This document shows positions 4,797 through 41,415 of a stretch of DNA of 64,000 nt, one piece after another. Both the position numbers and the translations under genes were made by a program. The notes beneath the pieces were generated by a model. That model had not been told where the DNA came from and ran no database searches. It worked only from the letters and a program-made list of their open reading frames with translations. The stretch spans positions 1 to 64,000 of the forward strand of contig NSJJ01000002.1 of NCBI GenBank assembly GCA_002632355.1. Direction: 5' to 3'. Position 1 is the first letter of the stretch; each line of letters opens with the position of its first letter. Origin of the DNA: Sulfuricella denitrificans. Lineage in GTDB: Bacteria; Pseudomonadota; Gammaproteobacteria; Burkholderiales; Sulfuricellaceae.

Positions 4797-4856
4797 TTCT
4801 CTATAACTCCCTTTTCCCAGGAAAATTTTGAATACAGCGGTTTACGATTCAGTCTT

Positions 4857-8989: not shown

Positions 8990-9012
8990 GTAGCCTTTTC
9001 TTTCCTGGATTT

Positions 9013-9396
9013 TCATGCCGCGGTTTTTGATGCCGCCGCAGATGGGATTTTCCTGATTACGTCCATCAGATCGTCAAGCTGGGAAGTCAGATCGAAACAA
9101 TGATCGGCCCCTGCATCCAGCCAGCGCCTGCGGTAGGCTTCCGCCCGTTCGCTGCCGGTCACGATGACGCACGCTGCCGGATACTGCGCCTTGAGCAGCG
9201 CAAGACAATGAATCGCCCTTGCATCGGGCAGGGGCGCATGCATCACGACAATACCTGGCGGCAAAGGACGCACCACTTCAAGCGCCGCTTCGGCATCGGC
9301 TGCGGTTTCCACCACCCCGACAACAGAAGTACCGGTGAGCATCATGGCCAGTCTCTGGCTTACCAGATCATTTTTTCCCAGCAGCAATATTTTCAC
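9013..9396 (-). CDS. Degenerate receiver-domain protein lacking the phospho-acceptor Asp
   Basis: A 127-aa protein with the length and alternating pattern of a CheY-like receiver. The usual Asp at the end of beta-3 is replaced by His ([13 protein letters not shown]). The acidic pair after beta-1 is lost (LLLGKND) and no Lys-Pro follows beta-5. It therefore probably cannot be phosphorylated in the normal way and may be a constitutive or ligand-controlled binding module. It is the first gene of the left-hand unit, after a 200-nt gap, and its stop overlaps a possible start of the MCP gene. Confidence 0.8.
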
Positions 9397-14445: not shown

Positions 14446-15402
14446 TCAAACTGTGGACAAGGCCCCGGGCACAACCCGGTCGCGACCCCCTTGCTTGGCT
14501 TCATACAAACGCTTGTCGGCACACTTCAACAGTTCCTCGCCGGTCACGGGATGGCCGACTGTCCACCATGAAACACCGATGCTGCAGGTCACCTTCCCGG
14601 CAGGGAGCGCGCCGAATGCGGCCTTGCGAACGGTCTGCAGGATGGCCTGCGCGGCATCGATCGCATCCTGCGGCGAACAGTGGGGAAGCAGCGCTGCGAA
14701 TTCCTCGCCGCCATAGCGCACCAGGATATCCGAATCACGCAAGCGGTCCTGTGCCACCTGGGCAAAGCTCCTCAGGACCTGATCGCCTTCATCATGGCCA
14801 TAGGTATCGTTGATCATCTTGAAGTGATCGATATCGAGCAGCAGGCAACCCAGCGGGTGGGCGTGACGGTTGCATAGCTTGAGCTGCTGCACCAGCCATT
14901 CCCACATGAAGCGCCGGTTGTACAATCCGGTCAGCGCATCGCGGTTGCTGTCATGCTGCAGCTTCTGCGCGACTTCGATCAGGGCGGAGGAGCGGGTGAT
15001 GCTCTCCGTGACATCCATGATGCTGACCACAGCCTGTATGCGGCCATCACGCCCCGTCAGCGGCGCCACATGCACATGCTGCTGCATCATGGAAGTACCG
15101 TGGCGCCCGCTGAAACGGGTATGGATCGGGATGACGAACTGATTCAGCGCCTGCGACAGCACCTGCGGCGACAGGTGCGTGATGGCCTGTTCCACCGCCC
15201 ATTGCAGACGAGGACTGCGGAAATTCGGGAACAGCTCGGACAGGGTTTTGCCCTGCGCATCCTTCTCGCCGATCGCCGTTTTTTGCGCCAGCCAGCCATT
15301 CCAGTGCTGCACCCGGCATTCTGCATCCAGCACGACGATGCCGATAGGGACCTGATCCCATATCCTGTCCGACACGCTTCCTGTTGAAACAGGATCAATC
15401 AT
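14446..15402 (-). CDS. PAS-GGDEF diguanylate cyclase
   Basis: A 318-aa enzyme predicted to make c-di-GMP from two GTP. An N-terminal PAS domain (about 10-125) is followed by a short linker helix and a GGDEF domain. The active site is VRYGGEEF and the RDSD tetrad five residues upstream fits the RxxD inhibitory site, so product feedback is likely. The ATG at 15402 overlaps the end of cheC by 8 nt, implying translational coupling. In Wsp systems this output position is held by WspR, a receiver-GGDEF protein; here a PAS replaces the receiver, so control by CheA would need an intermediary such as the neighbouring CheY. Confidence 0.93.
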   Translation of the reverse strand: MIDPVSTGSVSDRIWDQVPIGIVVLDAECRVQHWNGWLAQKTAIGEKDAQGKTLSELFPNFRSPRLQWAVEQAITHLSPQVLSQALNQFVIPIHTRFSGRHGTSMMQQHVHVAPLTGRDGRIQAVVSIMDVTESITRSSALIEVAQKLQHDSNRDALTGLYNRRFMWEWLVQQLKLCNRHAHPLGCLLLDIDHFKMINDTYGHDEGDQVLRSFAQVAQDRLRDSDILVRYGGEEFAALLPHCSPQDAIDAAQAILQTVRKAAFGALPAGKVTCSIGVSWWTVGHPVTGEELLKCADKRLYEAKQGGRDRVVPGALSTV

Positions 15403-16024
15403 CGAGCTTTCCCAGCAACACGGCATTGATCCGCGCAATCAGCTTGCTCACCGAATCAACGCCCAGCAACAGAATCAGGGTACCGTGCACATCCCGCTGT
15501 GCAGCCCGTAAGGTAGCGAACATGACGATCACATTCATGTCATGCCGTTCTTCATTGCCGACACGTTCATTGATCAGGTTCTGCAGGTTGTCTTCGACAT
15601 AATTCGGCGTCGAAAGCATGATGGCGCCGCGCAACAGGTCGGAAATCACCGCCACGGCGGATGAAATGATGATATTGCCGATTTCGGTCATGGCTTCATG
15701 CTCGAAGGTGCGCATGTCAATGCCGGCCAGGCTTGGCACCGACCCCACCAGGGCATTGACCAGGGAACGGCTTTCCTGCGAAGGAAACATGAGCATCGCC
15801 GTTCCTGCGATCTGCCCGCCCAGCCCTTGCCACACGCAGACAGCCGCCTCATCCTTGGCATAACCCAGTGCGGATGCCACATCGTTCAGGGGAATGATAT
15901 GAACCTTCGGTACCGTCACCGCAATGGCATCGTTGAGCAAGGCGGAAAGCTGTGTTGCAGCCCGGTTCATGCCGATATTGGCGACCTCGATCAGCGCATC
16001 GAGCTCCAGTGCTGATAGTTTCAT
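15395..16024 (-). CDS. cheC: CheC-family CheY-P phosphatase
   Basis: A 209-aa CheC-family protein. Two active-site helices match the D/ExxxExxN signature: DALIEVANIG near the N-terminus, and EAMTEIGN in the middle, where Glu stands in the first position. The family removes phosphate from CheY-P. The start overlaps the cheY stop as ATGA at 16021-16024, a strong sign that the phosphatase and its substrate are made together. CheC is common in Firmicutes, Archaea and Thermotoga and is not part of the canonical Wsp gene set. Confidence 0.87.
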   Translation of the reverse strand: MKLSALELDALIEVANIGMNRAATQLSALLNDAIAVTVPKVHIIPLNDVASALGYAKDEAAVCVWQGLGGQIAGTAMLMFPSQESRSLVNALVGSVPSLAGIDMRTFEHEAMTEIGNIIISSAVAVISDLLRGAIMLSTPNYVEDNLQNLINERVGNEERHDMNVIVMFATLRAAQRDVHGTLILLLGVDSVSKLIARINAVLLGKLDD

Positions 16025-16380
16025 TGCGCAACACGCTCCAGCATGGCCTTGATTTTTTCCGCCGTGATCGGCTTCTCGACGATATCGACGAAACCTGCCG
16101 CCATGGCGGCATCGACCACGCTTTGCTGGGTGTTGGCCGTAAACAGCACCAGCTTTGCCTTGCTGCCCGCAGCGCGCAATGCAAAAGCGGTTTCCACGCC
16201 GTTGTAGTCAGGCATGTTGTAATCCAGCACCACGAGATCGGGGTCCGTTTCGCTGGCTTTGGCCAATGCTGAATGGTAATCGCTCGCCTCATGCACTTCA
16301 TAGGCTTCGTCCTTGGGCATGTAGGCCTTGAACAGCAGGCGCGATGTCGTGCTGTCGTCGATGATCAGTATTTTTTTCAT
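16021..16380 (-). CDS. cheY: CheY-type response regulator coupled to CheC
   Basis: A 119-aa single receiver with the acidic pair in LIIDDSTTSR, phospho-acceptor Asp in LVVLDYNMPDYNG, Thr in LVLFTANT and Lys in VEKPI. All catalytic positions are present. Its stop overlaps the cheC start by 4 nt. It probably takes phosphate from the CheA-receiver hybrid encoded upstream and is reset by CheC. As the only stand-alone receiver in this part of the operon, it is the best candidate to carry the signal to the cyclase. Confidence 0.92.
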   Translation of the reverse strand: MKKILIIDDSTTSRLLFKAYMPKDEAYEVHEASDYHSALAKASETDPDLVVLDYNMPDYNGVETAFALRAAGSKAKLVLFTANTQQSVVDAAMAAGFVDIVEKPITAEKIKAMLERVAQ

Positions 16381-16419
16381 AAAATTACCTTATTGAACAT
16401 GGATTCGTAAAACGACCAT

Positions 16420-16824
16420 TCATCCTCTGGCCGTTTCCATTTTCTGCTTCATGACGCTCATCAGGGCCGCCACCGCGCCTGCCGATTCAGAAAGACAGTG
16501 ATCCTCCCTGCCTTCGCATGCATTCGCCAGCACCACCCCCTGACGCAGCAGGTCGTGGGCTTTGTAATTCAGGCCGGAACCATCCGCAAGGGCCACGCGC
16601 AGGAAGCGGGCATACTGGGCCAGGGCACGAAAAAAACTTTCCAGTGTCGTTCTGTTGCAGGCCCGGGCTGCGCCGTACAGGGTATCGAACTCCTGATGAA
16701 TCTGGTCGTAGCACAGCCTGAGTGCAGCCGGGTCTGTACTCTCGCCCAGGATCATCAAAGCCCGCTGTGTGCGCTCGCGGCATTCCTGACAAAAGGCCTG
16801 CTGCAATCCCGCAACATTCAGCAT
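16420..16824 (-). CDS. Small HPt-like helical protein without the phospho-acceptor His
   Basis: A 134-aa all-helical protein that I cannot assign firmly. Its middle (DTLYGAARACNRTTLESFFR) can be laid over the HPt core of the neighbouring CheA (HNIKGAARGVEVSDVAEIAH), but the phosphorylatable His falls on Asp. It contains five cysteines. It lies between cheB (7 nt upstream) and cheY (39 nt downstream), behind AGGAAGTGA. If the alignment is right, it may bind a receiver without passing phosphate. The alternative is an unrelated small cytoplasmic protein. Confidence 0.65.
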   Translation of the reverse strand: MLNVAGLQQAFCQECRERTQRALMILGESTDPAALRLCYDQIHQEFDTLYGAARACNRTTLESFFRALAQYARFLRVALADGSGLNYKAHDLLRQGVVLANACEGREDHCLSESAGAVAALMSVMKQKMETARG

Positions 16825-16831
16825 GCGTGCA

Positions 16832-17878
16832 TCACTTCCTCACCAGGCTGGTCAGATAGGAGGGCATGGCCTCCAGCCTGACGACCTGGTCGACCGCATC
16901 GATCGCCACGGCTGCGCCCGGCATGCCGAACACGATGCAGCTTTCCTCATCCTGCACAATCGTATGGCAGCCCGCGCGGCGCATCTCCAGCAAGCCCTCG
17001 GCGCCATCCACGCCCATGCCGGTCAGGATCGCGCCGATGGCATGGCCACGACAGGCGTCCGCCACCGATTTGAGCAATGGCGTGGCCGAAGGGCGAAAGC
17101 CGTTGACCGGCGGATCCTGCGTCATTTTTGCCATCAGCCCGTCGGCTCCGCGCTGCACCGTCAGGTGGCGTTCATCCGCTGCAAAATAGATGGTTCCCGG
17201 CCGCAGCGGTTCGCCATCTTGCGCGACCTTGACATTGAGCAGGGTATTACCGCCCAGCCAGGTTGCCAGACCGCCGACAAATCCCTTGGATATATGCTGC
17301 GTGATCACGACAGGCACCGGAAAACCGATCGGCAGCAGGGAGATGATTTTCTGCAGCGCCTGGGGGCCGCCCGTCGAGCAGCCGATGGCCAGGATTTCAT
17401 AGGCCCGGGTGCGCTGTGGAATGGCCGCCTCGAAAATGTTCACGTCCCGGGCGGTTTCGGTGCGCCGGCGGCGTATGACCTTGACTTCGGCCATGGCACG
17501 CACGGTTTCCACCAGTTCGCGCCGGATCGAGTCGAACTCGGGATGGCTCAGGCCGCGCGGCTTCTCGATCACGGCCAGGGCGCCTTCCTCGATCGCGCGG
17601 AAAGTGGTGCGCAGCTCTTCGTCGTCCACGCTGGAGCTGATCACCACGATCGGCACCGGGTCCGTCGACATGATCATGCGCGTGGCCTCGAAGCCATCCA
17701 TCACCGGCATGCGGATGTCCATGGTAATGAGGTCCGGCTTGAGCTCGTGCGCCATCTGCACCGCTTCGCGGCCGTTCCTGGCCTGGCCGACGATCTGCAT
17801 GTCCGGCTCATGCTCGAAAATGGCCTTGAGCAGCATGCCCACTACCTGCGAATCTTCTGTGATCAATATGCGTATCAT
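16832..17878 (-). CDS. cheB: Chemotaxis response regulator methylesterase CheB
   Basis: A 348-aa two-domain enzyme that removes methyl groups from receptor glutamates. The N-terminal receiver has the acidic pair in LITEDSQVV and phospho-acceptor Asp in LITMDIRMPVMDG. The C-terminal esterase has the catalytic Ser in GCSTGGP, His in ITQHIS and Asp in GMGVDGAEG. It follows the CheA-receiver gene by 34 nt. In Wsp systems this place is held by WspF. Confidence 0.96.
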   Translation of the reverse strand: MIRILITEDSQVVGMLLKAIFEHEPDMQIVGQARNGREAVQMAHELKPDLITMDIRMPVMDGFEATRMIMSTDPVPIVVISSSVDDEELRTTFRAIEEGALAVIEKPRGLSHPEFDSIRRELVETVRAMAEVKVIRRRRTETARDVNIFEAAIPQRTRAYEILAIGCSTGGPQALQKIISLLPIGFPVPVVITQHISKGFVGGLATWLGGNTLLNVKVAQDGEPLRPGTIYFAADERHLTVQRGADGLMAKMTQDPPVNGFRPSATPLLKSVADACRGHAIGAILTGMGVDGAEGLLEMRRAGCHTIVQDEESCIVFGMPGAAVAIDAVDQVVRLEAMPSYLTSLVRK

Positions 17879-17912
17879 GAATACCTAGTCATTTTCAGCC
17901 GGAATTTATCGT

Positions 17913-20189
17913 TCATACCAGCTGTTTCACCACATCCAGCAAGACCTTGGTTTCGAACTGCCCCTTGACGATATAGGCATCCGCACCGACCTCGATGCCA
18001 CGCTTGCGATCGGCTTCGCTCGCCAGCGAGGTGACGATGATCACCGGCGTGCTGCGCAGGCGTTCGCTGTTCCTGATTTTATCAGTCAGCTCGAAGCCGT
18101 TCATATTGGGCATTTCCACATCGGAAACCACCAGATCGAATGCCCGTGTCTGCAGGATATCCCAGGCCTGCCTGCCGTCCACGGCTACCGTCACATCATA
18201 GCCGACGTTCATCAGGATGCTTCTTTCCAGTGTCCGGGTGGTGATCGAGTCGTCCACCACCAGAATGGCAGGCACCTGCGCCGTCTCCTCATCCTTCCCG
18301 ATCCGTCCCAGGGAAGCTGAAGTACCGGCGCGCAGCGCCGAGTCGACCAGGTCGGACGGGTTGAGCACCATGATCACCTCGCCATTGCCGGTCAGCGTGC
18401 CGCCCGTGACATTGCGCACCGAAAGCAGCGGGTAGCGGAACGGCTTGATGACGACTTCGCGTTCACCGACCACATCCTCCACCACAAAGGCAACCGCGTC
18501 CCAGCCCTTGGAAACCACCACCACCGACAATTGTTCCGGCGAAAAAGGTTCATTGCTTTCAACCTGCAATACTGCGGCCAGATCACGCAGCGGGATGGCT
18601 CGCCCGTTCAGCAGCAGGACCTGGCTGGCCTCGACTTCAGTGATCTCGGCCGGGGTGATTTCCAGGACGCGGTCCACCGAAGTGGTGGGAATGGCATACA
18701 CCGCCCCGCCTGCCTTCACCAGCAAGCCGTGATCGGTCGCCAGCGTGAGTGGCAGACGCAGTGTGAAGGTCGTGCCCCTGCCTTCCTCGGTATCGATATT
18801 CACCGATCCCTTGAGGCTGCGCAGATTGGAAAGCACGACATCCAGCCCGACCCCGCGCCCCGAAATATTGGTGATGATTTCCTTGCTCGAAAAACCCGGA
18901 CGGAAAATCAGGCCAAGCACCTCATCGTGCCCCATCGCATCCAGTTCCGCCTGCGTCACAATTTTTTTCCTGAGCGCAGTGGTGGAAATTTTTTCCGCGC
19001 TGATTCCGGCGCCGTCATCCTCCACCCTGATGACGATATGGCTGCCCTCGCCGCGCACGCGCACCGCCAGACGGCCAGCCGCGTCCTTGCCCGCCGCCGT
19101 TCTCTGTTCAGCGCTTTCCAGGCCATGATCCACCGCGTTGCGCAGCAGATGCACCAGCGGATCGCGCAGGCCGTCCAGCACCACGCGATCCATCTCGATC
19201 TCGTCGCCGGTGATTTCGAATTCAACCTGCTTGCCAAGCTCGCGGGCAATGTCCCGGACCGAGCGGATCATGGGCCGCAACAACGTGGACACCGGCACCA
19301 GGCGCATCATGCGGATATCGTCCAGCATCGAAACCGACAAAAGGCTGAGGTGGTTGGTGCTGGAACGCATGTTGCGATGCATCCTCGTCGCCGCATTGTC
19401 CAGTTCGAGGATCCTGTCGGTGGTGCTTTTCAGCAGGGTTTCCACCTCGGCCGGCAGGGAATCCGCCCGGGAACCAGGGTTGCGCGATTGCGCTGCGTGC
19501 TTCCACATGCCGGACAAAGCCTGAATCTGGCTGCGCAGTTGCTGCATGCTGACCATGTGATCTTCCATCTCGATCTTGGCGCCCTGCAGCTCCTCCACCT
19601 GCGCCGCCATCTTCTCCAGCTTTTCCAGGTTGATCTTGACCCCTTCGTTCCGGGCCTGTACGCCCGCCGTTTCCGCTTTCGCCATCGAAGCAGGTTCGAC
19701 CTGGGTGTTCTTTGTGACCGGTTCGGTTGCTGGCACAGGCCCGGCAGGTGCCGGAGCAAGCTCACTGACTGGCGCCTGTTGCGCTTTTTCAAAGCGATCC
19801 AGGCGGCCTATCAGCGACGGCAGATCGAAAGCGGCGGGCTTTTGATCGCTGAAAGCCAGCATTGCCTCGCGCATGCGGTCCAGGCTTTCCAGGCACAGGT
19901 CGATCACTTCTGGCGCGGGCCGGGTATTCTGGCGCTTCAGCACGCTGAACAGGGATTCCAGATGATGGGCAATCTCGGCGACATCGCTGACTTCAACCCC
20001 TCTGGCCGCGCCCTTGATGTTATGCGCGGCACGGAAAATCGCGTCCAGCGTATGCTGGCGATTTTCCCCTTCGATCCCTTTCTCGATCTGCAGCAGCCCA
20101 TCAGTGATGATCTGCAACTGCTCTTCGAGCTCCACCCTGAAGGTGTCCATCAACAGCCGGATCAGTTCCGGATCAAAATCCATCGCCAC
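17913..20189 (-). CDS. cheA: CheA-type kinase fused to a receiver domain (WspE-like)
   Basis: A 758-aa hybrid kinase. The N-terminal HPt has phospho-acceptor His56 in AAHNIKGAARG. A proline/alanine-rich linker near 135-175 and a coiled-coil dimerisation region follow, then the ATPase (HLLRNAVDHGLE, VEDDGAG, ISGRGVGLDVV), a CheW-like domain, and a C-terminal receiver (VVDDSITTR, phospho-acceptor in LVVSDVEMPNMNG). This HPt-kinase-CheW-receiver order is typical of WspE and other alternative-function systems. A GTG at 20189 has GGAG six bases upstream; an ATG two codons later is possible. Confidence 0.96.
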   Translation of the reverse strand: MAMDFDPELIRLLMDTFRVELEEQLQIITDGLLQIEKGIEGENRQHTLDAIFRAAHNIKGAARGVEVSDVAEIAHHLESLFSVLKRQNTRPAPEVIDLCLESLDRMREAMLAFSDQKPAAFDLPSLIGRLDRFEKAQQAPVSELAPAPAGPVPATEPVTKNTQVEPASMAKAETAGVQARNEGVKINLEKLEKMAAQVEELQGAKIEMEDHMVSMQQLRSQIQALSGMWKHAAQSRNPGSRADSLPAEVETLLKSTTDRILELDNAATRMHRNMRSSTNHLSLLSVSMLDDIRMMRLVPVSTLLRPMIRSVRDIARELGKQVEFEITGDEIEMDRVVLDGLRDPLVHLLRNAVDHGLESAEQRTAAGKDAAGRLAVRVRGEGSHIVIRVEDDGAGISAEKISTTALRKKIVTQAELDAMGHDEVLGLIFRPGFSSKEIITNISGRGVGLDVVLSNLRSLKGSVNIDTEEGRGTTFTLRLPLTLATDHGLLVKAGGAVYAIPTTSVDRVLEITPAEITEVEASQVLLLNGRAIPLRDLAAVLQVESNEPFSPEQLSVVVVSKGWDAVAFVVEDVVGEREVVIKPFRYPLLSVRNVTGGTLTGNGEVIMVLNPSDLVDSALRAGTSASLGRIGKDEETAQVPAILVVDDSITTRTLERSILMNVGYDVTVAVDGRQAWDILQTRAFDLVVSDVEMPNMNGFELTDKIRNSERLRSTPVIIVTSLASEADRKRGIEVGADAYIVKGQFETKVLLDVVKQLV

Positions 20190-20208
20190 GGCTAGCTCCG
20201 TTCCAGGA

Positions 20209-22422
20209 TCATAGCTTGTATATCCCCACGCTTTCCTGCAGCTTGTCCGCCATGACGGAAAGATCCGTTACCGCGCGCCGGGTCTGCTCGGTGCCGGAGA
20301 CGAACTGCAGCGTCACCTGATTGATCTCGGACATGGCTGCCGTGACCTGATCGATACCGTTGGCCTCCTCGCGCACGGCGGAGACGATGCGCTGGCTCGC
20401 CAGCGAGGTCTCCCGCACCACTTCGCTCAGGTTGCGCACCATATCCCCGGTACGCTGCACCAGCAGCACCCCGGCATCGACGCCCTTGGTGCCTTCTTCC
20501 GTCGCCATTACGGCCCGGTCGGTCGCATGCCGGATGTCCTGCAGAATGACTTGCACCTGGGCTGTCGATTGCCGCGATTGTTCCGCCAGCTTTCTGACTT
20601 CGGCCGCCACCACGGCAAAGCCCTTGCCCGCTTCACCCGCTTTCGCGGCCTCGATCGAGGCATTGAGCGCAAGAATTTTCGACTGCTGCGCCAGATTCAT
20701 GACCACGCCGGTAATTTCCCCGATCTGCTGGGTCTGCTCGGAAAGCGCCAGAATCGTCTGCGCGATTCCTTCGACACGCCCGCGGATCGCCTCCATGCCC
20801 TGAATCGCCTTCTCTACCGAATTCAGTCCCTGATCGCTCTCGCGCCGCGCCTGCTCGGCCGATTCCCCCAGCCTGCGGGCCTGCTCCAGCGTCTGCGCCG
20901 AAGTTGCCTTGATCTCGTACATCGAAGACGTGGTCTGGTTCACCGACGCGGCCTGCTCGGCTGCACCGGCCGACTGCGCATTGATCGCACTCTGGAACTG
21001 CGCCAGCGTGGTGCTCATGACCGAGCTCGCTTCCTTGATCTCGCCGGCCATGCGCGACAGACTCCGGGTCATGCCGTTGAGATTCATGCCCAGTTGCGAC
21101 AGGTCGTCATCACCCGCCACGTTCACATGCCGAGTCAAGTCGCCCTGGGCAACCTGCTCCACATAGGCGCGGAACTGGGCGATCTTCTCCTTGAGCTCGG
21201 TTGCCACCTGCTGTTCGCGCTCGGCCAGATTCCTGATCTGCAGGGTGCTACCCCTGATCTTTCCGGCCAGTGCATTGAATTCGGCGCCCAGCACGCCGAT
21301 CTCGTCATGGGAATCGCGCTCGATGGTGCGATACAGATCGCCTGCTGAAAAGGACTGCATGGCCTCGGTCAATTCCCGTGTCTTGTAAGCAATGCGCCTG
21401 ACGATGATATACATCAGCCACAGCGAAGTACCACTCCCCAGCAGGATCAGCGCCAGGAATTCCAGAGACGAATTCCGCATGTCCACCTTCTTGCCATCCA
21501 GCGAATCCAGCAGTTTGCCAGCCAGCCGGGATTCAACCTGGCCGAGCAGATCGATCCGGCAGGTTGCCTGCCTGAACGCATCGGCGGAATCCACCCCGAA
21601 TGCGCCCCCGGCCTTTTTCTCCAGTGCGATCCGGCGCTGCGCCTCGGTCTTGCTCACGCAGTCGGCACCCATCTGCTGCTGATAAAACGAGCGGGATTCA
21701 TCGCTTGCGTTCAACAGAAACTGCCCGGAAAAAATCCCCTGAGCAACCACAGAAAAAGCCAGGCGGTCGGCCAGGGCTGGCGACATCTGATCGACGGCGA
21801 ACACCTCGGCCAGAATGGCCCGCTCGATGCCGGCCTGCTCCTTCAGCTGGCTGAGGCTGTCATATGCCTGCAAATGGCGTGTCATGACGGGGTCCTGGCT
21901 CAGGACGATGAGCTGTTCGTCGAGCTTCAGAAAGGCACGATGCAAATCCGAATAGTAATTCAGCATTTCGCCCGAAGTGGTGGTCAGCTTATCGGCGCCC
22001 GCCCGCTTCTCCGGCAATTGTGCGAGCAGTTCCAGCGCACTGCGCAACTGCTGCTCAAATTGCATCCCGTAGTCTTTGCCTGTCCGCCTGGCCAGGCTGG
22101 CTTTCAGGAGTGCAATCTTTTCGTCAACCGCCTTGCGCCTGACCGGCAACTCCTCTGCAAACGTCTTGCCCCGGGTCGCCACGTAGGCAACCGATCGGCC
22201 ACGCTCCCGCTGCGATTCACTGACCAGGGAATTGATCGCGACCGATAGCTGCACGACTTCTTCCAGTTGAGTCACCGACACCCACGCCGCCCTGCGGCTG
22301 ATCGCACCATCGAGCGTGAACACGAACAAACCCAGCACCGGAACCACCAGCAGCAGGATCAGCTTGTCCCGCATCTTCATGTTGTTGATCAGACGAATCA
22401 GGTATTTATGCAGCATGGACAT
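20209..22422 (-). CDS. NIT-domain methyl-accepting chemotaxis protein
   Basis: A receptor of about 737 aa. TM1 is near residues 20-40. The extracytoplasmic domain has the NIT signature (ESQRERGRSVAYVATRG, followed by a VRRKAVDEKI helix); this family is proposed to sense nitrate and nitrite. TM2 is near 330-350, followed by HAMP-type regions (the second with GDDDLSQLGMNLNGMT) and a signalling domain with LALNASIEAAKAGEAGKGF. There is no pentapeptide at the C-terminus (GIYKL). Starts at 22425 (GTG), 22422 and 22416 lie almost on top of the stop of the preceding MCP gene, so translation is probably coupled. Confidence 0.93.
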   Translation of the reverse strand: MSMLHKYLIRLINNMKMRDKLILLLVVPVLGLFVFTLDGAISRRAAWVSVTQLEEVVQLSVAINSLVSESQRERGRSVAYVATRGKTFAEELPVRRKAVDEKIALLKASLARRTGKDYGMQFEQQLRSALELLAQLPEKRAGADKLTTTSGEMLNYYSDLHRAFLKLDEQLIVLSQDPVMTRHLQAYDSLSQLKEQAGIERAILAEVFAVDQMSPALADRLAFSVVAQGIFSGQFLLNASDESRSFYQQQMGADCVSKTEAQRRIALEKKAGGAFGVDSADAFRQATCRIDLLGQVESRLAGKLLDSLDGKKVDMRNSSLEFLALILLGSGTSLWLMYIIVRRIAYKTRELTEAMQSFSAGDLYRTIERDSHDEIGVLGAEFNALAGKIRGSTLQIRNLAEREQQVATELKEKIAQFRAYVEQVAQGDLTRHVNVAGDDDLSQLGMNLNGMTRSLSRMAGEIKEASSVMSTTLAQFQSAINAQSAGAAEQAASVNQTTSSMYEIKATSAQTLEQARRLGESAEQARRESDQGLNSVEKAIQGMEAIRGRVEGIAQTILALSEQTQQIGEITGVVMNLAQQSKILALNASIEAAKAGEAGKGFAVVAAEVRKLAEQSRQSTAQVQVILQDIRHATDRAVMATEEGTKGVDAGVLLVQRTGDMVRNLSEVVRETSLASQRIVSAVREEANGIDQVTAAMSEINQVTLQFVSGTEQTRRAVTDLSVMADKLQESVGIYKL

Positions 22423-22426
22423 CACC

Positions 22427-23968
22427 CTATAGCTTGTAAACGCTGATACTCTGGCGCAATTTTCCGGCCACGGAAGTCAGGTCGGAAGCCGCGTTCTTGC
22501 TCTGCTGGGCGCTGGTGACGAACTGCGCAGTCAGGCTGTTGATCTCCGACATCGCCATCGTCACCTGGTCGATCCCCGTGGCTTCCTGGCGCACCGCCGC
22601 GACGATCTGCTGGCTCGCCATCGAGGTTTCCCGCACCACTTCGCTCAGCTCCCGCATCACATCGCCGGTGCGTTCCACCAGCGCCACGCCGGCATCCACG
22701 CCCTTGCTGCCTTCCTCTGTCGCCATCACGGCCCGGTCGGTAGCGTGCCGGATATCCTGCAGGATTTTCTGCACCTGTGAGGTGGATTGCTGCGACTGTT
22801 CCGCCAGTTCGCGTACCTCGGCCGCCACCACGGCGAAGCCCTTGCCTGCTTCACCGGCCTTGGCCGCCTCGATCGAGGCATTCAGCGCCAGCATCTTGGA
22901 CTGCTGCGCCAGATTGGTCACCACTCCGGTGATCTCGCCGATCTGCTGCGTCTGCTCGGACAGCGCCAGAATGGTCTGGGCGATGCTCTCCACCCGCTCG
23001 CGAATGCCGCCCATGCCATGAATGGCCTGCGCCACCGCATCCAGGCCCTGTTCGCTTTCGCGCCGGGCGCGTTCAGCCGATTCGCCCATCTTGCGCGCTT
23101 TTTCCAGCGTCTGGCTGGAGGTCGCCTTGATTTCCTCCAGCGTGGAAGAGGTCTGGTTCACCGAGGCCGCCTGCTGGGATGCACCGGCAGACTGGGCGTT
23201 GATCGCACTCTGCAGCTCTTCCAGCGTGGTATTCATCGTCAGGCTGGCTTCCCTGATTTCCTTGGCCATGTGCGAAAGGCTTTCGGTCATGCCGTTCAGG
23301 TTCGTGCCCAGCCGGGACAAATCATCGTCGCCATCCGTTTTCACGCGCCGCCGCAAGTCGCCTTCCGACACCTCATTGATGAATGCCTGATAATCCGACA
23401 CCCGTGCCTCGATTTTTTCCTTGGACATGCTGACCCCCTGCAGGTCCGTCATCAGCCCATGGATGTAGGTATCCATCGCCAGTTGCGAATCGAGGAAGAT
23501 GATCTTGTTGAATGCCTCCAGCGCACGGTCGCGCTTGCCCGGGCTGAAGCGGTACTTCTTCATGATCAGGGGAATGACCGCCAGGCTGTATACGCTGTAG
23601 CTGCCAAGATACCAGCGCGGCGTCAGGCCGATTCTGTTATGCACCACGCCGATCATCAGGCGCCGGTCAAAATACGATTCGCCATACTCGCCATCGAACA
23701 GTTCGAGCAGGTAGCGCTTTTGCGCCTGCTTGAGCCGGTCCAGGCTGGAGCCCGCATCATCGATGATTTTCATCAATTCCTGATAGCGTTCGATATTGGC
23801 GTAGAACAGATCCACGATGTCATCCGCGTTGGCCTCGATCAACGGGCGCATTTCCTTGAGCAATTCGGCATCTTCGCTGCCAAAATCGATGAAACGCTTG
23901 CGCGAAGCCTGTTCTGCGGCATCGATGCCCATCTGTCGGGCCAGTGACTGTTCTTTGTTCATTTCCAT
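22427..23968 (-). CDS. Globin-coupled (HemAT-like) aerotaxis-type chemoreceptor
   Basis: A soluble 513-aa receptor with no membrane segments. Residues 1 to about 180 are a protoglobin-type heme sensor; His110 in MIGVVHNRIGLTPRWYLGSY is the expected proximal ligand. A HAMP-like linker (GDDDLSRLGTNLNGMT) leads to a signalling domain closely similar to that of the following NIT receptor. The family binds O2, and sometimes CO or NO, and signals to CheA. GGAGAG stands six bases before the ATG at 23968. Its place between the CheW and CheA-receiver genes makes oxygen a probable input to this module. Confidence 0.95.
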   Translation of the reverse strand: MEMNKEQSLARQMGIDAAEQASRKRFIDFGSEDAELLKEMRPLIEANADDIVDLFYANIERYQELMKIIDDAGSSLDRLKQAQKRYLLELFDGEYGESYFDRRLMIGVVHNRIGLTPRWYLGSYSVYSLAVIPLIMKKYRFSPGKRDRALEAFNKIIFLDSQLAMDTYIHGLMTDLQGVSMSKEKIEARVSDYQAFINEVSEGDLRRRVKTDGDDDLSRLGTNLNGMTESLSHMAKEIREASLTMNTTLEELQSAINAQSAGASQQAASVNQTSSTLEEIKATSSQTLEKARKMGESAERARRESEQGLDAVAQAIHGMGGIRERVESIAQTILALSEQTQQIGEITGVVTNLAQQSKMLALNASIEAAKAGEAGKGFAVVAAEVRELAEQSQQSTSQVQKILQDIRHATDRAVMATEEGSKGVDAGVALVERTGDVMRELSEVVRETSMASQQIVAAVRQEATGIDQVTMAMSEINSLTAQFVTSAQQSKNAASDLTSVAGKLRQSISVYKL

Positions 23969-23995
23969 TCAATCTCTCCAGAGAGAAGTTATCGT

Positions 23996-24715
23996 TCAGG
24001 CTGCGGACCGGTTCACGACCAGCCCCGGGTCGGCCAGCATGGCCCGGATATTCAATAGCGTGACTTTTCCTTCATAGATGCCCTGTACATATTCGATGTT
24101 GGAAACGCCGTCGGAAGAAAGGGGTGCCGCCACCCTGGCGGGCACGTAAAACTCATTGCCTTCCACCGCATCCACCAGCAGCCCGACCCGGGCGCCATCC
24201 GCCTGCACGACGATGATTCTGGCCTGGCTGGCATCCTCATGCGCATCGGTACGAAAAAACTGTCTGAGATCCAGCACGCTCAGCAGCTCGCCACGGCGGT
24301 TCACCACGCCAGCAATCGCCCGAGGTGTTCCCGGCACGCGCGCGATGCTGCCCACGTACATGAGTTCCTCCAGACAGGCATACGGAATACCATAAAGCTC
24401 GTTCGGCCCGAGCCGGAAGCACAGGTACTGGTCGCGCGCTTCCTCCACCACGCCCGTTTTCTGCAACCGAGCCAGCAACCGGGCCCGGCTGCGCAGGACT
24501 TCCTGAACATTTTCATCCCTGGGCATGAGCTGGACAGCGCCGACGGCCGGTGCAATGGCGGGTGGCAGGCCGGCAGCGGACGGACGTGCATGAGGCGTCC
24601 CCGGAGAGGGCGTCTTTGCGCCCGGCGCCGTCTCTTGCGCAAATGCCAGTGCCTCTTCAAAAACCGGCTTCATGGCGCTGACTTTATCCGTCCGGCCTTT
24701 ATTTTCTTTTCCCAT
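23996..24715 (-). CDS. cheW: CheW coupling protein with N-terminal extension (WspD-like)
   Basis: A protein of about 239 aa. A disordered, proline/alanine-rich N-terminal extension of about 85 residues precedes a CheW domain (YGIPYACLEEL, IAGVVNRRGELLSVLDL). I chose the ATG at 24715, six bases after AAGGGA, over a TTG five codons upstream. It scaffolds CheA with receptors. Wsp operons encode two CheW proteins (WspB and WspD) around a CheR-TPR gene; the same pattern appears here with a ParA-like gene added between CheR and this CheW. Confidence 0.93.
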   Translation of the reverse strand: MGKENKGRTDKVSAMKPVFEEALAFAQETAPGAKTPSPGTPHARPSAAGLPPAIAPAVGAVQLMPRDENVQEVLRSRARLLARLQKTGVVEEARDQYLCFRLGPNELYGIPYACLEELMYVGSIARVPGTPRAIAGVVNRRGELLSVLDLRQFFRTDAHEDASQARIIVVQADGARVGLLVDAVEGNEFYVPARVAAPLSSDGVSNIEYVQGIYEGKVTLLNIRAMLADPGLVVNRSAA

Positions 24716-24749
24716 GCGTATTCCCTTCAACCCGGCTGCGCGCTTCCGG

Positions 24750-25397
24750 CTATGCCAGCGCAGCCTTCACTTCCGCCACCAGCCCGCCAAATTCGTCACG
24801 CGCCAGCCGGTCCGTCCATTCCGACACCGACAGCCCGCGCCCCAGCGCCTCGCCATAAGCCACCCGGTAACCCAGACGGGCCTGCATCTCCTCCAGACCG
24901 AGCTGGGCATGCACCGCCTCGCTCAGCTCCCGGGCCGAGCGCGTATGCTCCCGAAACCGGTTCCATACGATACGCACATCGATTTCCGGGCGCCTGCGGC
25001 GGGCAGCCTCCACCGTCTGCACCAGATCGCCGGTCGCCCATACCTCGGCCGCGCTCGCCCCGAGGGGCAGCAGGCAGAGCCGGCTCATGATGAGCATGAC
25101 CTTGGTGATCTCCGCAATGCGCGGCGGCCCGTCGATCACGATGTAATCCTGCGAGCCGACCAGCTGCCGGGCCTTGTGCACCAGCTCGACATGGTCCTGA
25201 GCGGTCGTGACCGTCAGATTGCCAAGGCGCCCCGCCTCCCGGCGCAATGCGCCCCACGAGGCGCTGGTGCCCTGCGGCACATCGCCATCGATCAGCGTGG
25301 TCGCTCCCTCGAGCGACAGCGCTGCGGCGAGATTGGTGGCCAGCGTGGAGCGCCCCACCCCGCCCTTGACCTGCACGACGCCAATGATTTTAGCCAT
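24750..25397 (-). CDS. ParA/ParC-like ATPase with altered P-loop
   Basis: A 215-aa MinD/ParA-superfamily protein. Relatives in chemosensory clusters (ParC of Vibrio, PpfA of Rhodobacter) position receptor arrays in the cell. The deviant Walker A is present as VKGGVGRST: the signature Lys11 is kept, but the P-loop Lys before Ser/Thr is Arg16 (codon CGC). The Walker B-like YIVIDGPP is normal. The gene sits between cheR (10 nt upstream) and cheW (34 nt downstream). Loss of the P-loop Lys often impairs hydrolysis, so this may be a nucleotide-binding or slow version. Confidence 0.9.
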   Translation of the reverse strand: MAKIIGVVQVKGGVGRSTLATNLAAALSLEGATTLIDGDVPQGTSASWGALRREAGRLGNLTVTTAQDHVELVHKARQLVGSQDYIVIDGPPRIAEITKVMLIMSRLCLLPLGASAAEVWATGDLVQTVEAARRRRPEIDVRIVWNRFREHTRSARELSEAVHAQLGLEEMQARLGYRVAYGEALGRGLSVSEWTDRLARDEFGGLVAEVKAALA

Positions 25398-25407
25398 GAT
25401 TCACCCT

Positions 25408-26985
25408 TCAGCCGAACTTCGGATCATGTGCATTGCGGTGAACGCTCTGTACGCGCCGGGTGTCCGTTCCGACACCGGAATACATGCTGATCTCGTTCCT
25501 GAGAATCTCCGCGAAGCGGTGGTAAGTCATGTCCTGGGCATCATGCATTTCGCGCCCGGGGTCCCCTTTTTCCGCCAGACTCAGGGCATTCTCGAGGCTT
25601 TTCAGTCCGCCGCGCCGGTCTCCCCGCCCCAGCTGGAGCACACCCAGCTGATAGTGCGCTTCGACGCACAGGTAATCCAGGTAGATCGCCTTGCGAAGGG
25701 CTGTCTCGGCTTCCTGATTGCGCCCCGCATCCATCAGGACAAGCCCCTGAATCAGGTAAGTATGCTTGTCGGCCGGGTCCAGCGCCAGGCTTTGCCCGCA
25801 TGCCGCCAATGCCGCCTCGTAGCGGCCGAGGTTTGCCAGCGCCTTGGCCTGAAACTGCGACAGCAAGGCGCTTTCGGCAACTTTTCCACCCTGTTTCCCG
25901 AGCAGCTCGACTGCCGCTTCCCAGTGCCTGGACTTGAGCAGCGCGATGACATCCTTCTCTTCCGGACTGAAGCCGCCGGTCTGTTTCTTATCAGGCACGG
26001 CTACCGGTTCAGCCAGCGGCACAGCCGGTTTCGGCGCTGCAACATCATCATGCAGGAACGATTGCGCCTCACGCATTTCGTCATTTGCTTCAGTGCCCTG
26101 CCCGCTCAGGCGATAGTACCCTGTCTCACCCGCCCGGACATGGCAGAACGCATCCGGACATTCCACCAGGTCAGACGGACCCAGCAGCAGAACGCCTTCC
26201 GGCTGCAGGCAGGCAGCGAATTTCTCCATCACACGCCGGATCACATCCCGGTCCAGATAGATGAACACGTTGCGACAGAAAATCATGTCGAGGGCATTCG
26301 TCTCGGTCATGATGGAAGGAAAGCTGTCCTCGGTCAGGTTGAGGTAGGTGAAGCGCACCAGGCTGCGTGTCTGGGGCGCCAGCTCGAACTCGCGTCCCAC
26401 AGGGGTAAAATACTTCTCGCGCACGGCTACCGGCGTGGCGCGGAACGACCACTCGCTGTAGCGCCCGATCATGGCAGCGGTCAGCACTTCGGCATTGATG
26501 TCCGTGCCGAGCAGATGGATGGTCCAGTTCCGGATATCCGGCAACAGCTCCTGCAGCAGGAGCGCAACGGTATAGATTTCCTGCCCGACCGAGCACCCCG
26601 CGCTCCAGATACGCAAGACACGATCGCCGGCCAGACGTTTGCGCGCGATCATTTCGGGCAACAGGGTGTTGCGCAACAGCCCGATCTGTTCGGCATCGCG
26701 AAAGAAATAGCTTTCGCCGACCGTAATGCCGGAAACCAGAAACTCGAGTTCGGGCGCAATCCGGGGCTGGTTCTGCAAGGCCAGCAGATAAGCCTCGCAA
26801 CAGTCATGACTGAAATGCCCGCAGGCACGCGCCACGGTGGCGCGCAAATTGCCGAGCTGGTGATCCTGCAGCACGATGCCGGTGCGCTGGCGGATGAAGC
26901 GAAGCAGCGATTCCTCGCAACTTGCGCTCATTGTGAACTGAGCAGACTGATGGTGCTTGGTGTGATTCGACTCGGCCATCTTCAT
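25408..26985 (-). CDS. cheR: CheR methyltransferase with C-terminal TPR repeats (WspC-like)
   Basis: A 525-aa protein that methylates receptor glutamates with SAM. The N-terminal helical CheR domain is about 20-85. The methyltransferase has the SAM loop in WSAGCSVGQEIYT, and CRNVFIYLDRDV further on. A linker (about 300-345) leads to roughly three TPR-like helix pairs (about 345-475). CheR-TPR proteins are typical of Wsp-type systems, where the receptors lack pentapeptide tethers; both receptors in this operon lack one. It starts 3 nt after the upstream cheW stop. Confidence 0.95.
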   Translation of the reverse strand: MKMAESNHTKHHQSAQFTMSASCEESLLRFIRQRTGIVLQDHQLGNLRATVARACGHFSHDCCEAYLLALQNQPRIAPELEFLVSGITVGESYFFRDAEQIGLLRNTLLPEMIARKRLAGDRVLRIWSAGCSVGQEIYTVALLLQELLPDIRNWTIHLLGTDINAEVLTAAMIGRYSEWSFRATPVAVREKYFTPVGREFELAPQTRSLVRFTYLNLTEDSFPSIMTETNALDMIFCRNVFIYLDRDVIRRVMEKFAACLQPEGVLLLGPSDLVECPDAFCHVRAGETGYYRLSGQGTEANDEMREAQSFLHDDVAAPKPAVPLAEPVAVPDKKQTGGFSPEEKDVIALLKSRHWEAAVELLGKQGGKVAESALLSQFQAKALANLGRYEAALAACGQSLALDPADKHTYLIQGLVLMDAGRNQEAETALRKAIYLDYLCVEAHYQLGVLQLGRGDRRGGLKSLENALSLAEKGDPGREMHDAQDMTYHRFAEILRNEISMYSGVGTDTRRVQSVHRNAHDPKFG

Positions 26986-26988
26986 GCG

Positions 26989-27540
26989 TCAGGCCAGAGC
27001 ACGCTCTATTTCCGGCCCCCACAGTGCCATGTCGGCATTTTCCTGATCTGCCAGACTGAAATCGATGGCGATCACCCGGCTCACATCCAGCAGCAGCGCC
27101 AGTCCCTGGGTCACATTCAGGGTCGCCAGGAAGGGCGGCGCGCTTTGCTCGAAGGCCGGACGGAGCTGAATGTCCTGCTGCGCCACCGCCTGAATACCGA
27201 GAATGCTGCTGACCAGCAGTCCCATCCTGCGCTCACCTTCACTGCAAACAACGATTGGCGTATCCAGTGTATAGGCTTCCGCATCCGGCAGCCCGAGGCG
27301 AATGCCCAGATCCAGCACCGGCACGCTGGCGCCGCCCATACTCATGAAACCGGCCAGGTACGACGGCCCGCCGGGCAGCGGATGCAGCGCCACGAGGGGC
27401 AACGCGCGCTCGACAAAACTCAGGGGAATACAACAGAGCAGATGCTGGGTCTGGATCACCAGCACCTGGCACACCGCCTCTGCATCCAGGCATCCATTTG
27501 TCAGGCCATTCCGGGTTTCAGAAGAATCAGGCTGGGTCAT
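26989..27540 (-). CDS. cheW: CheW-like coupling protein (WspB-like)
   Basis: A 183-aa CheW-domain protein, more divergent than the others here. It keeps the CheW layout (CCIPLSFVERALPLV, LAGFMSMGGASVPVLDL), but Met-Gly replaces the usual Asn-Leu-Arg-Gly part of the motif. Its start lies inside the 3' end of the HD-GYP gene (14-nt overlap), so the phosphodiesterase and the array genes are translationally linked. By position before cheR-TPR it corresponds to WspB. Confidence 0.9.
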   Translation of the reverse strand: MTQPDSSETRNGLTNGCLDAEAVCQVLVIQTQHLLCCIPLSFVERALPLVALHPLPGGPSYLAGFMSMGGASVPVLDLGIRLGLPDAEAYTLDTPIVVCSEGERRMGLLVSSILGIQAVAQQDIQLRPAFEQSAPPFLATLNVTQGLALLLDVSRVIAIDFSLADQENADMALWGPEIERALA

Positions 27541-28624
27541 CCCCCGCCTTTCTGTACCAGTCCAGCACGCCCGAATTCATCATATGCTCGAGCAGCACTG
27601 CGCTGCGGTCCTTTTCCATGGTTTCATACTGTTCCAGATCTTCCGGCCGGTTCCTGAGAATCTCCAGGAAGACCTTCATCAGCCGGGCATCCCAATAGCC
27701 GCGCGCGGTTTCTTCCTCCATGATCCGGATCACCTCTTCCCGTGGGAAAGCAGGCTTGTAGGGGCGTTCGCTGGAAAGCGCATCGAAGATATCGAGTATC
27801 TGGAACACCCGGGCCAGCAAGGGAACTTCCTCGCCCCTGAGGCCATCCGGGTAGCCCGAACCATCCTGCCGCTCGTGGTGGGAACGAACGATGTCCACAG
27901 CCTTGGTCATGGTACGCAGCGGACTGCACAATTGCGCACCGATGACAGTATGCTGTTTCATGATCAACCACTCTTCCGGCGTCAGCTTGCCCCGCTTCAG
28001 CAGGATGGAATCCGGGATGCCCAGCTTGCCGATATCGTGCAACACGCCGCCGCGGCGCAGCGCTTCCAGTTCATTGAAGGAAAGCCCCAGTGCCTTTCCG
28101 AATACCAGGCCGTAGTGAGAAAGCCGGCTGCAATGATCGCCGGTGTTTTCGTCCCGCGCCTCCACCATGCGCGCCAGGGAAAACAGCACCGATTCGGTAT
28201 CGTCAAGCCGGTCGGTCAAGCGCTTGCGCTCGATCGCCGCATGCACGCGCGCCGACAGTTCCAGCATATTGAAAGGCTTGGTCACGTAATCGTCGGCACC
28301 GACATCCATGCCGCGCACGACATTATCCGGCTCGCCCAGCGAAGTCAGAATGATCACCGGCAACAGGGTCAGGCCAAGGTCCTTGCGGATACGGCGGCAG
28401 GTCTCGAAACCGTCGATCCCCGGCATCATGATGTCCATCAGCACCACATCGACCTGGGTGACTTTCAGGATGCGTAGCGCCTCTTCACCGTCACACGCCT
28501 CGATCACCTCGTATTCCGGGGGTTTCAAAGCGTAGTGGAGCAACTTGCGGTTGGTCGCCATGTCGTCCACCACCAGCACCTTTGCAGGCGCAAAATCTGA
28601 AATGGATCTTGCGTCACCCTTCAT
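27527..28624 (-). CDS. Receiver-HD-GYP response regulator (c-di-GMP phosphodiesterase, RpfG-like)
   Basis: A 365-aa protein. The receiver (about 13-130) has VVDDMATNR, phospho-acceptor Asp64 in VVLMDIMMPG, and Lys in YVTKPF. The HD-GYP domain has HDIGKLGIP and HHERQDGSGYPDGL, the metal and substrate residues expected for c-di-GMP hydrolysis. It is the first gene of the 19-kb unit, with GGAG upstream of the ATG at 28624, and overlaps the CheW gene. It could be phosphorylated by the array CheA, so that the array controls c-di-GMP breakdown directly. Confidence 0.94.
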   Translation of the reverse strand: MKGDARSISDFAPAKVLVVDDMATNRKLLHYALKPPEYEVIEACDGEEALRILKVTQVDVVLMDIMMPGIDGFETCRRIRKDLGLTLLPVIILTSLGEPDNVVRGMDVGADDYVTKPFNMLELSARVHAAIERKRLTDRLDDTESVLFSLARMVEARDENTGDHCSRLSHYGLVFGKALGLSFNELEALRRGGVLHDIGKLGIPDSILLKRGKLTPEEWLIMKQHTVIGAQLCSPLRTMTKAVDIVRSHHERQDGSGYPDGLRGEEVPLLARVFQILDIFDALSSERPYKPAFPREEVIRIMEEETARGYWDARLMKVFLEILRNRPEDLEQYETMEKDRSAVLLEHMMNSGVLDWYRKAGDDPA

Positions 28625-28786: not shown

Positions 28787-31700
28787 TCATGTGCTGGCAT
28801 TTGCTGCCAGGGCTGCACGAGCAGTTTGCAAGGTTTCCAGCGCCTGCTCGTAAGCGAAATCCCCGATCTGCTGTTCCAGCGTCACGGTCGCCAGCTGCCC
28901 CAGAACGCTGCGCAGCGAGGACGCATTCTCGTGAAAAAGCGTATTGGCCTGCATATTACCTCCGGCCAGCAGGGCTTCGAGTTGGTCCAGCAGGGCCCGC
29001 AGCTGCGTGCTGTCCAGCTTTCCGGCCGGGGCGGCAGGCGCACCTTCGGGCAGAACTGAGAGCAGTGCTGCCGCAAGGGTCGCCTGTTCGGCTTCGAGCG
29101 CAGCGGAAAGGGTGACGATATCTTCCGCATGACGCTGTTCACGTATCGCCGCTTCCAGCCCGCCCGCCAGGGCCTGAACCCGGATGGCGCCGAGGGTACC
29201 GGAGACCCCCTTGAGCGAGTGCGCCAGGCGCAGGGCATCGGCAGTATTTCCTGCGGCATGGCTTGCGCGCAGGGCGGTCATGTCATCGCCATGGCTCTGC
29301 ACATATTGCCGCAATAGCCGGACCAGGCTTTCCATTTTGCCGCGCACGCTTCTCAGGGCGAGCGTCGAATCGAATCCGGGAATGCTGTCCAGTTGTACCC
29401 GCATGGCGTCTTGTCCAGTGTCGACCGGCGTTGTCAATGCGGCAGAAGCGGCCAGGGGCTGTTCGCGCTTCGGCAGCCATTTCAGCAGCGTACTGAAAAG
29501 CACTTCCGGATCGACCGGTTTGGCGATGAAATCATTCATGCCAGCGGCTTGGCAGCGCTTGCGATCCGTATCGAAGGCATTGGCAGTCATGGCCAGGATC
29601 GGTGTCGCATCACGCCCAGACAGGCTGCGAATGATCCCCGTCGCTTCTAATCCGTCCATCTCCGGCATCTGAATGTCCATCAGGATCAGGTCATAGGCTT
29701 TCCGCTGCGCCATTTCGACTGCTGCCTGTCCGTTATCTGCCAGCTCGACAGACAATCCGGCACCTTGCAACAGTTCCAGCGCCACTTCCTGATTGATCGG
29801 ATTATCCTCGGCCAGCAAAATTGTCATGCCCTGGCATTGCTGCGCAAGAAGAAACTCCGTCGAAGAGGCTGGCGGGCTCGCATCCGGAACCATGCCGGTT
29901 CCCATCAGCAGGCTGACCAGCAGGTCATGCAGACTGGACAAAGTCACCGGCTTGACCAACTGGGCAGTGATTCCGGCATGGCGGACCTGTTCCTGAATAC
30001 CGATATCGTCCGGAACCATGGCGACCACATGAGGCGGCAGGCTGTTGTGGAGCGGTAGCGCTGAAACCTGTTTCGCCACCCCGGAGAGATCGGGGCCGGT
30101 TGAACGCCAGTCGAAAAGGGCACAATCGAAAGGGGTATTTTCACTGTCAGCGACTTCCATTGCTTTCAGCGCCTGATTGACCGAATTCACGCTGGTGACG
30201 TGCAAACCCAGCGTTTCCAGCATTTTCCTGGCCACCCCTCGCGTACTGAGCAGTCCATCCACCAGCAATACGCGCCGGTCAGGCAGCGTGCCGCAGATCT
30301 GGCGCGCATCCGGATGATCCGGTTTGCCCAGACGCGCGGTAAACCAGAAAATGCTGCCTTTGCCGGGCTCGCTTTCCACACCGGTCTCGCCGCCCATCAG
30401 TTGTGCCAGGCGCTGGGTAATTACCAGCCCCAGCCCGGTGCCGCCGTATTTCCGGGTAATCGAGTTGTCCGCCTGTTCGAAGGGAGTGAACAGGTGATCC
30501 AGTGCTTTCTGGCTGACGCCGATGCCGCTATCCTGTATTTCGAAGCGCACCAGCACTTCGGCCTCGTTTTCTTCAACGATTCTGGCGCGCACGATCACTG
30601 AACCCTGCTCGGTAAATTTGACCGCATTGCTGGCATAGTTGAGCAGGGATTGTCCCAACCGCATCGGATCGCCCCGTAATACCCGCGACAGGGCCGGATC
30701 GATGTCTACCACCAGCTCCAGTTCCTTGGCCAGCGCTTTCTCCGCTACCATGGAACACACATTTTCCACCACCCGGTCCAGTTCGAAGTCGGATTGTTCC
30801 AGCGCAAACTTGCCGGCTTCGATCTTGGAAAGGTCCAGAATATCGTTGATCAGCACCAGCAAATGATGTGCGCTATCTTCAATCCGGCTCAACTTACGCC
30901 GCTGCCCGGCATCGAGGCTGCCCCGCCGCAACAGGTGCGCAAGTCCGATGATGGCATTCATCGGCGTCCTGATCTCGTGGCTCATGTTGGCGAGGAAGGC
31001 GCTCTTGGCTTGGGTGGCGGCCTCGGCCTGGTCCCGCGCTTCGGCCAGTTGCTGCGTGCGCTCCGCCACCAGTTCTTCCAGATGGTTGCGGTGCTGGTCC
31101 AGTTCCATGCCGATACGTTTCTTCTCGGTGATGTCCTCCTTGATGGCCAGGTAATGGGTGATGCTACCGTCGGACTGGCGTATCGGCGTGAGGCGGGCGA
31201 ATTCGGCATATTCGCTGCCATCCTTGCGCCGGTTGATCATTTCGCCCTTCCATGGCCGCCCGTGCGTCAGCGCCTCCCATAGCTCGACATAGGTTGAACG
31301 CGGCGTCTTGCCCGATTGCAGAATGCGCGGGTTCTTGCCCATCACTTCCTCTCGGCTGTAGCCAGTGGCCTGGATGAAGGCTTCATTGACGTACTCGATA
31401 TTGGCGTCGAGATCGGCAATCACGATGCTCTCCGGGCTCTGCTCCACTGCAAGGGAAAGCTTGCGAACAGACTCTTCGGCCTTTTTTCGACTGGTGATGT
31501 CGCGCACAATGCCGACTGCCTGCCAGCGCTCGCCGACCTGGATGCCGGAGAGAGAAAGCTCGATGGGAAATTCGTGACCATCCCTGTGCAGTGCCGTCAG
31601 TTCGAGCGTCCGGCCAATGGCCGCTCCTGATCCGTTCCGGGAAAAATCCGGAAAGGCGTTATGGTGGGCTGCGTGAAAACGCTCGGGCGCAAGCTTGTTG

Positions 31701-32923: not shown

Positions 32924-32974
32924 GTCAGGCCCCGATCAGGTTTGCTGTGCGCTTGCCGGCCTGTAAAATCAGGG

Positions 32975-34093: not shown

Positions 34094-34112
34094 CAAGCAA
34101 ACCCTCCGGAGT

Positions 34113-41390: not shown

Positions 41391-41415
41391 AGTGTGATCT
41401 CCCTTGTCCATCTGG

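Follow-up and report, generated by a model that had tools for sequence, protein, structure and literature searches.

We describe a 13-gene chemosensory operon of Sulfuricella denitrificans, carried on the minus strand (28624→14446) of the window analysed here, the first 64,000 nucleotides of contig NSJJ01000002.1 (assembly GCA_002632355.1). On balance we think it probable that its genes make up a single, complete chemosensory pathway of the alternative cellular function (ACF) type, sensing oxygen and nitrate and adjusting cyclic di-GMP (c-di-GMP), with a CheA kinase from a clade distinct from that of the Wsp system. More tentatively, and with clearly less than even confidence, it may represent an undescribed class of system that is thinly scattered through Pseudomonadota. 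In such systems an array sensing oxygen, and in some lineages also nitrate, would feed c-di-GMP enzymes of opposing activity, and the passage of phosphate between them would be regulated by a dedicated histidine phosphotransfer (Hpt) homologue, with aspartate in place of histidine, that stands alone or is joined to CheY. In a single operon, signals from two electron acceptors and c-di-GMP control in either direction would become testable together, and the chemosensory family can be recognised by a small signature protein, present in most cases, for which neither Pfam nor NCBIfam holds a model. If true, a conserved Hpt protein with Asp at the phosphoacceptor position would add a new type of control element to those of bacterial chemosensory pathways.

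The operon is confirmed as real. Neighbouring genes are spaced by -44 to +39 nt, and the gaps outside are 162 nt before and 84 nt after; promoter and terminator scans gave signal no better than chance. It begins with a 365-residue c-di-GMP phosphodiesterase joining a receiver (REC) to an HD-GYP domain (27527-28624; HDIGK and HHExxDGSGYP motifs intact), followed by CheW1 (26989-27540), a CheR methyltransferase with C-terminal TPR (25408-26985; GCSVGQE motif intact), a ParA/MinD-like ATPase (24750-25397) and a CheW2 with a long N-terminal tail (23996-24730). Two methyl-accepting chemotaxis proteins (MCPs) come next, a protoglobin-HAMP-MCP (22427-23968) and a NIT-HAMP-HAMP-MCP (20209-22425), and then a CheA with P1, kinase, CheW-like and C-terminal receiver domains (17913-20189) and a receiver-methylesterase CheB with its catalytic Ser/His/Asp motifs (16832-17878). 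Downstream lie a 134-residue pseudo-Hpt protein (16420-16824), a CheY-like single receiver in the same frame and 39 nt further on (16021-16380), a CheC-type CheY-P phosphatase with two ExxN active sites, E13/N16 and E114/N117 (15395-16024), and a PAS-GGDEF diguanylate cyclase lacking a receiver domain (14446-15438; GGEEF and RxxD I-site intact), whose start coordinate is mechanical, an in-frame ATG lying 36 nt further downstream. Catalytic motifs are intact across the Che proteins and the c-di-GMP enzymes, including His56 of P1 and the N and G boxes of CheA. All the genes named in a sequence-only reading of this region are present where it placed them, each domain with strong Pfam support; the ATPase, the 134-residue protein and the stand-alone CheY are three genes that its finding had not included.

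A tree built from 74 CheA cores places the window CheA in a clade of 12 sequences (support 99/100), separate from Wsp-order, flagellar (including E. coli) and Chp CheAs. The nine CheAs of Wsp-order clusters, recognised by cluster gene order rather than by name, form a 100/100 group of their own with the window CheA outside. When the tree was enlarged with loci from a phylum-wide search the clade comprised 21 sequences (96/96), and the Wsp and flagellar CheAs stood together across a supported branch from it. CheR-TPR and multidomain response regulators occur generally in ACF clusters; clusters with CheR-TPR are typically of the ACF kind and often include c-di-GMP regulators (PMC3447774). The window cluster has both a REC-HD-GYP protein and CheR-TPR, and its CheA lies outside the flagellar and Tfp classes.

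The same gene set recurs in other families, orders and classes, with CheAs 42-58% identical to that of the window. Among 20 clusters compared, the window included, the usual layout is CheW–CheR-TPR–CheW–globin-MCP(–NIT-MCP)–CheA-REC–CheB–output, and the order CheW1, CheR-TPR, CheW2, receptor(s), CheA-REC, CheB holds in most loci. Exceptions are L185, where CheR has no recognised TPR, L059 and L230, where one or both CheWs went unrecognised, and L125-L127, where CheW2 did. The globin receptor is present in 15 of the 20 (window, L046, L059, L125-L127, L181, L182, L184, L227, L229, L231 and L233-L235) and NIT receptors in the window, L125-L127 and L230-L232. REC-HD-GYP, in two different slots, occurs in the window, L046, L125-L127, L227 and L229, and CheC in the window, L059, L125-L127 and L184. 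The three relatives L125-L127 carry the full set of globin-MCP, NIT-MCP, REC-HD-GYP, CheY, CheC and PAS-GGDEF. At least 13 of the 20 clusters include, or directly adjoin, a c-di-GMP synthesis or breakdown enzyme, in forms that vary between PAS-GGDEF, REC-GGDEF, REC-REC-GGDEF, GAF-PAS-GGDEF-EAL and a separate globin-GGDEF; one such globin-GGDEF protein (L232:4577-5791) lies near a clade member that has a NIT receptor and no globin receptor. Since the layout recurs, three relatives hold the full set and c-di-GMP enzymes sit in or beside most clusters, the linkage is selected rather than a product of chance. The conserved linkage that the sequence-only reading had proposed looking for is found across distant relatives. 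Named clade members are Motiliproteus, a Methylococcaceae genome and a zetaproteobacterium, with further members in unnamed Pseudomonadota. At the thresholds used, clade members turned up in 4 of 200 genomes from the order, in about 6 of 369 from the class and in 12 of 398 from the phylum. These chemotaxis-like systems, which are apart from Wsp, form a family that is rare yet widespread.

Three other explanations of the operon should be considered. The most serious is a flagellar pathway for aerotaxis and nitrate taxis, in which CheY-P would act at the flagellar switch with CheC as its phosphatase, and the c-di-GMP enzymes would do no more than modulate motility. A stand-alone CheY and a CheC are indeed present, the host genome encodes FliM, and an F7-like CheA lies only ~10 kb away. 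However, the window CheA falls outside the flagellar group, so that the flagellar placement named by the sequence-only reading as one refutation of its proposal did not occur, and CheR-TPR with multidomain response regulators are the ACF features noted above. The genome also has a separate Chp CheA and a separate flagellar CheA, the latter on contig C33 with CheY-like and CheW-receiver genes as neighbours, and many clade members keep c-di-GMP outputs with no stand-alone CheY. We therefore regard the flagellar explanation as unlikely, though it deserves more weight than the other two. An accidental string of unrelated genes in a signalling-rich region, which the abundance of kinases, response regulators and a second HD-GYP in the flanks might suggest, can be given almost no credence, as the set recurs in distant genomes even where the HD-GYP slot has changed.

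The remaining explanation, a Wsp system with swapped receptors, we consider very improbable. The operon shares with Wsp (Pseudomonas, Burkholderiales) the CheW pair, CheR-TPR, CheA-REC, CheB, a c-di-GMP output and a 40H receptor of the class seen in Wsp-order clusters. It differs in its CheA, which lies outside the 100/100 Wsp group, while in the enlarged tree Wsp groups with flagellar CheA; in having globin and NIT receptors where Wsp has WspA; and in lacking a REC-GGDEF protein (WspR), its cyclase having no receiver. CheC, CheY, HD-GYP and the pseudo-Hpt, none of which was seen in the Wsp-order loci read, are extras of the window operon, as is the ParA-like ATPase. On the CheA trees and the 40H arms, then, the resemblance to Wsp is one of gene types and receptor class, and the kinase is not WspE. 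The earlier label "Wsp-like" holds to that extent and fails for descent, while the broader proposal of a non-flagellar, alternative-function-type system with an oxygen-type receptor, a NIT-type receptor and both c-di-GMP enzymes is supported.

The two receptors differ in their placement, the globin receptor having no membrane helix and the NIT receptor two, but both have 140-residue arms from the hairpin tip, which is the 40H class. In the globin domain the proximal His110 and the B10 Tyr56 align with those of HemAT, and we infer that the receptor senses oxygen or another heme gas ligand. The NIT domain scores 151 bits against its Pfam model, and its Arg76 and Arg265 align with R77 and R264 of the NasR chain 4akk, which would equal R49 and R236 if that chain carries 28 extra N-terminal residues. 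These residues we take to be the counterparts of the NasR pocket arginines, and by this homology the ligand is probably nitrate or nitrite. The host genome encodes both NarG and NapA, each well above cut-offs. The signalling halves of the two window receptors are 74% identical to each other and 50-58% identical to those of other NIT receptors, and supported branches of the MCP tree require the NIT label to change three times or more. Because of these label changes and that identity, either the NIT sensor has joined repeatedly or gene conversion homogenises receptors of the same operon. The comparison suggests that both window receptors serve the same kinase; that they share one array, as the sequence-only reading had it, is no more than possible, one being soluble and the other having two membrane helices, though both are 40H.

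The 134-residue protein had no match in Pfam and NCBIfam scans. Twelve homologues are encoded, each directly after cheB, and in L125-L127 the homologue is fused to a CheY receiver. Its profile aligned by hhalign to CheA P1 domains with 96.4% probability (E 1.2e-9) and to ChpA Hpt domains with 93.4%, while ten unrelated families reached at most 0.9%. In both profile alignments Asp47 falls at the position of the phosphoacceptor His, and this Asp is invariant (12/12), as are E14, R18, Q44, E45, R54 and A69; the Lys position of the HxxKG motif is Tyr, His, Ser, Asn or Ala. The protein is thus shown, at the level of sequence homology, to be an Hpt homologue in which His has been replaced by Asp. 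An HMM search of 274 class genomes gave three strong matches, all in loci of the window clade, and weaker matches in long ChpA-type or CheA frames, of which the five read all have HxxKG Hpt motifs. A single-sequence AlphaFold2 model (pLDDT 65) has five helices, for which Foldseek and VIA-align returned only generic helical bundles and nothing significant.

It is possible to imagine the protein as an active Hpt working through a conserved histidine, His43, one helical turn before Asp47. This residue is present in 11 of the 12 homologues, and L182 keeps a true Hpt gene beside its pseudo-Hpt, making a relay within the system plausible. Yet His43 is Tyr in L184, the phosphoacceptor column in both alignments is Asp47 rather than His43, and the HxxKG Lys is replaced, and we find an active Hpt doubtful. 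The L182 gene (L182:2326-3246), directly after the pseudo-Hpt gene, encodes an Hpt whose HxxKG is intact and, behind it, a segment resembling a degenerate receiver. Globin receptor and pseudo-Hpt tend to occur together (12 loci with both, two with globin only, five with neither and none with pseudo-Hpt without globin; Fisher p 0.0018); with relatedness controlled, three independent pairs remain and the association is not significant (p 0.25). Plants offer an analogy for how such a protein may act, in the pseudo-Hpt AHP6, which lacks the phosphoacceptor His. AHP6 is an Hpt-type protein that inhibits the phosphorelay of cytokinin signalling (PMC3572949); it is eukaryotic and serves as an analogy only.

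Returning to the ACF pathway that we favour, the following sequence of events can be proposed from the gene content. Autophosphorylation of CheA at His56 would respond to oxygen or another heme gas bound by the soluble globin receptor and to nitrate or nitrite bound by the periplasmic domain of the NIT receptor. Phosphate would then pass from CheA to several receivers: its own, acting as a sink or timer; that of CheB, adaptation being carried out jointly with CheR-TPR; CheY, which CheC would dephosphorylate; and the receiver of the HD-GYP protein, changing c-di-GMP hydrolysis. The PAS-GGDEF cyclase would supply the opposing activity, driven by its own PAS input. The pseudo-Hpt, which would not be phosphorylatable at the usual site, most likely docks on receivers, as its fusion to CheY in three relatives suggests, buffering or steering the flow of phosphate. 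Positioning of the soluble receptor cluster may, in the window lineage, fall to the ParA-like ATPase together with the long-tailed CheW2.

Several observations weigh against this proposal. The cyclase has no receiver, and hence escapes direct control by CheA through phosphorylation. The position of HemAT T95 is Ala in the window globin, so that ligand kinetics may differ, and the ligand of the NIT receptor is assumed from homology. The NIT scores of L126 and L127 are weak. Some clade members carry other outputs, namely histidine kinases and, in L185 (L185:6807-8123) and L231 (L231:13164-14972), REC-adenylate/guanylate cyclases; c-di-GMP output is therefore common in the clade and not universal. 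The two cyclase outputs suggest that the second messenger of the output can switch.

The P-loop of the ParA-like ATPase reads KGGVGRS, in which the usual second Lys is Arg, and so departs from the ParA pattern KGGxxK, a Lys that all 15 compared order relatives keep. No ParA-like gene is found in any of the relatives' clusters. In 250 genomes of the order no relative of the ATPase exceeds 37% identity, and the five loci of these nearest relatives that were read, 13-20 kb each, contain no che genes; the ATPase is therefore not a conserved part of the system. The N-terminal tail of the window CheW2 is also some 40-60 residues longer than in the relatives' CheW2. In Rhodobacter sphaeroides, too, a che operon that includes a soluble receptor contains the gene for a ParA-type ATPase, PpfA (PMC2829493), an arrangement that in the present clade occurs in the window only. 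That cluster, however, serves chemotaxis to the flagellar motor, whereas the window protein has Arg for the P-loop Lys and is not kept in relatives. A PpfA-like positioning role is no more than a possibility.

The gene combination of the operon was not found described in the open-access literature, most subscription journals being outside the scope of the search; to that extent the earlier statement that no such system was known has stood. The nearest described analogues found are chemosensory cluster 2 of Halomonas titanicae and the Cc-5 aerotaxis cluster of Corallococcus coralloides. The former, in the part of its report consulted (PMC5907407), shares a 40H receptor, CheA-REC, CheR-TPR, a c-di-GMP output and an Hpt domain beside receivers, but has as its output a single Hpt-REC-REC-GGDEF protein in which the phosphorylatable residues are kept; its gene order differs, and globin, CheC and HD-GYP are not reported there. 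A CheA match on a Halomonas plasmid is 33% identical to the window CheA. Cc-5 (PMC6194562) has a globin-bearing soluble MCP within a che cluster, but as a PAS-Bac_globin MCP in a seven-gene cluster with ABC1 and ABM-domain genes, without c-di-GMP enzymes and with no CheY found nearby. Other globin-coupled sensors (HemAT; globin-GGDEF) share the protoglobin with proximal His and B10 Tyr, whereas the window receptor belongs to a dedicated che operon that also encodes c-di-GMP enzymes. For Methylospira mobilis the consulted part of the report lists one NIT MCP, one protoglobin MCP and seven CheAs, with no operon description (PMC6956133), and a 2026 aerotaxis review makes no mention of NIT or CheC.

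The surroundings of the operon hold further signalling genes. At the contig start a second chemotaxis cluster (29-7028), interrupted by the contig end, encodes two CheWs, two MCPs with E. coli-like C-terminal lengths and the F7-like CheA (4857-7028). It is followed by a 414-residue MCP in which the signalling domain alone was recognised and a short receiver-like protein (7772-9396), with a LuxR-type regulator and a large histidine kinase of PAS type beside them. On the same strand as the operon, and immediately upstream of it (28787-34096), lie a dCache-PAS hybrid kinase, whose other domains are HisKA, a receiver and an Hpt, and a second REC-HD-GYP protein. Elsewhere in the genome, contig C13 carries a stand-alone CheR-CheB pair (L145:9676-11200) whose CheB has no receiver. 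Finally, positions 39075-46827 of the window encode a cohesin-domain secretin, a T2SSE ATPase with an MshEN domain, possibly a c-di-GMP receptor, and a T2SSF protein, and these genes, lying near the operon, form a candidate c-di-GMP target.

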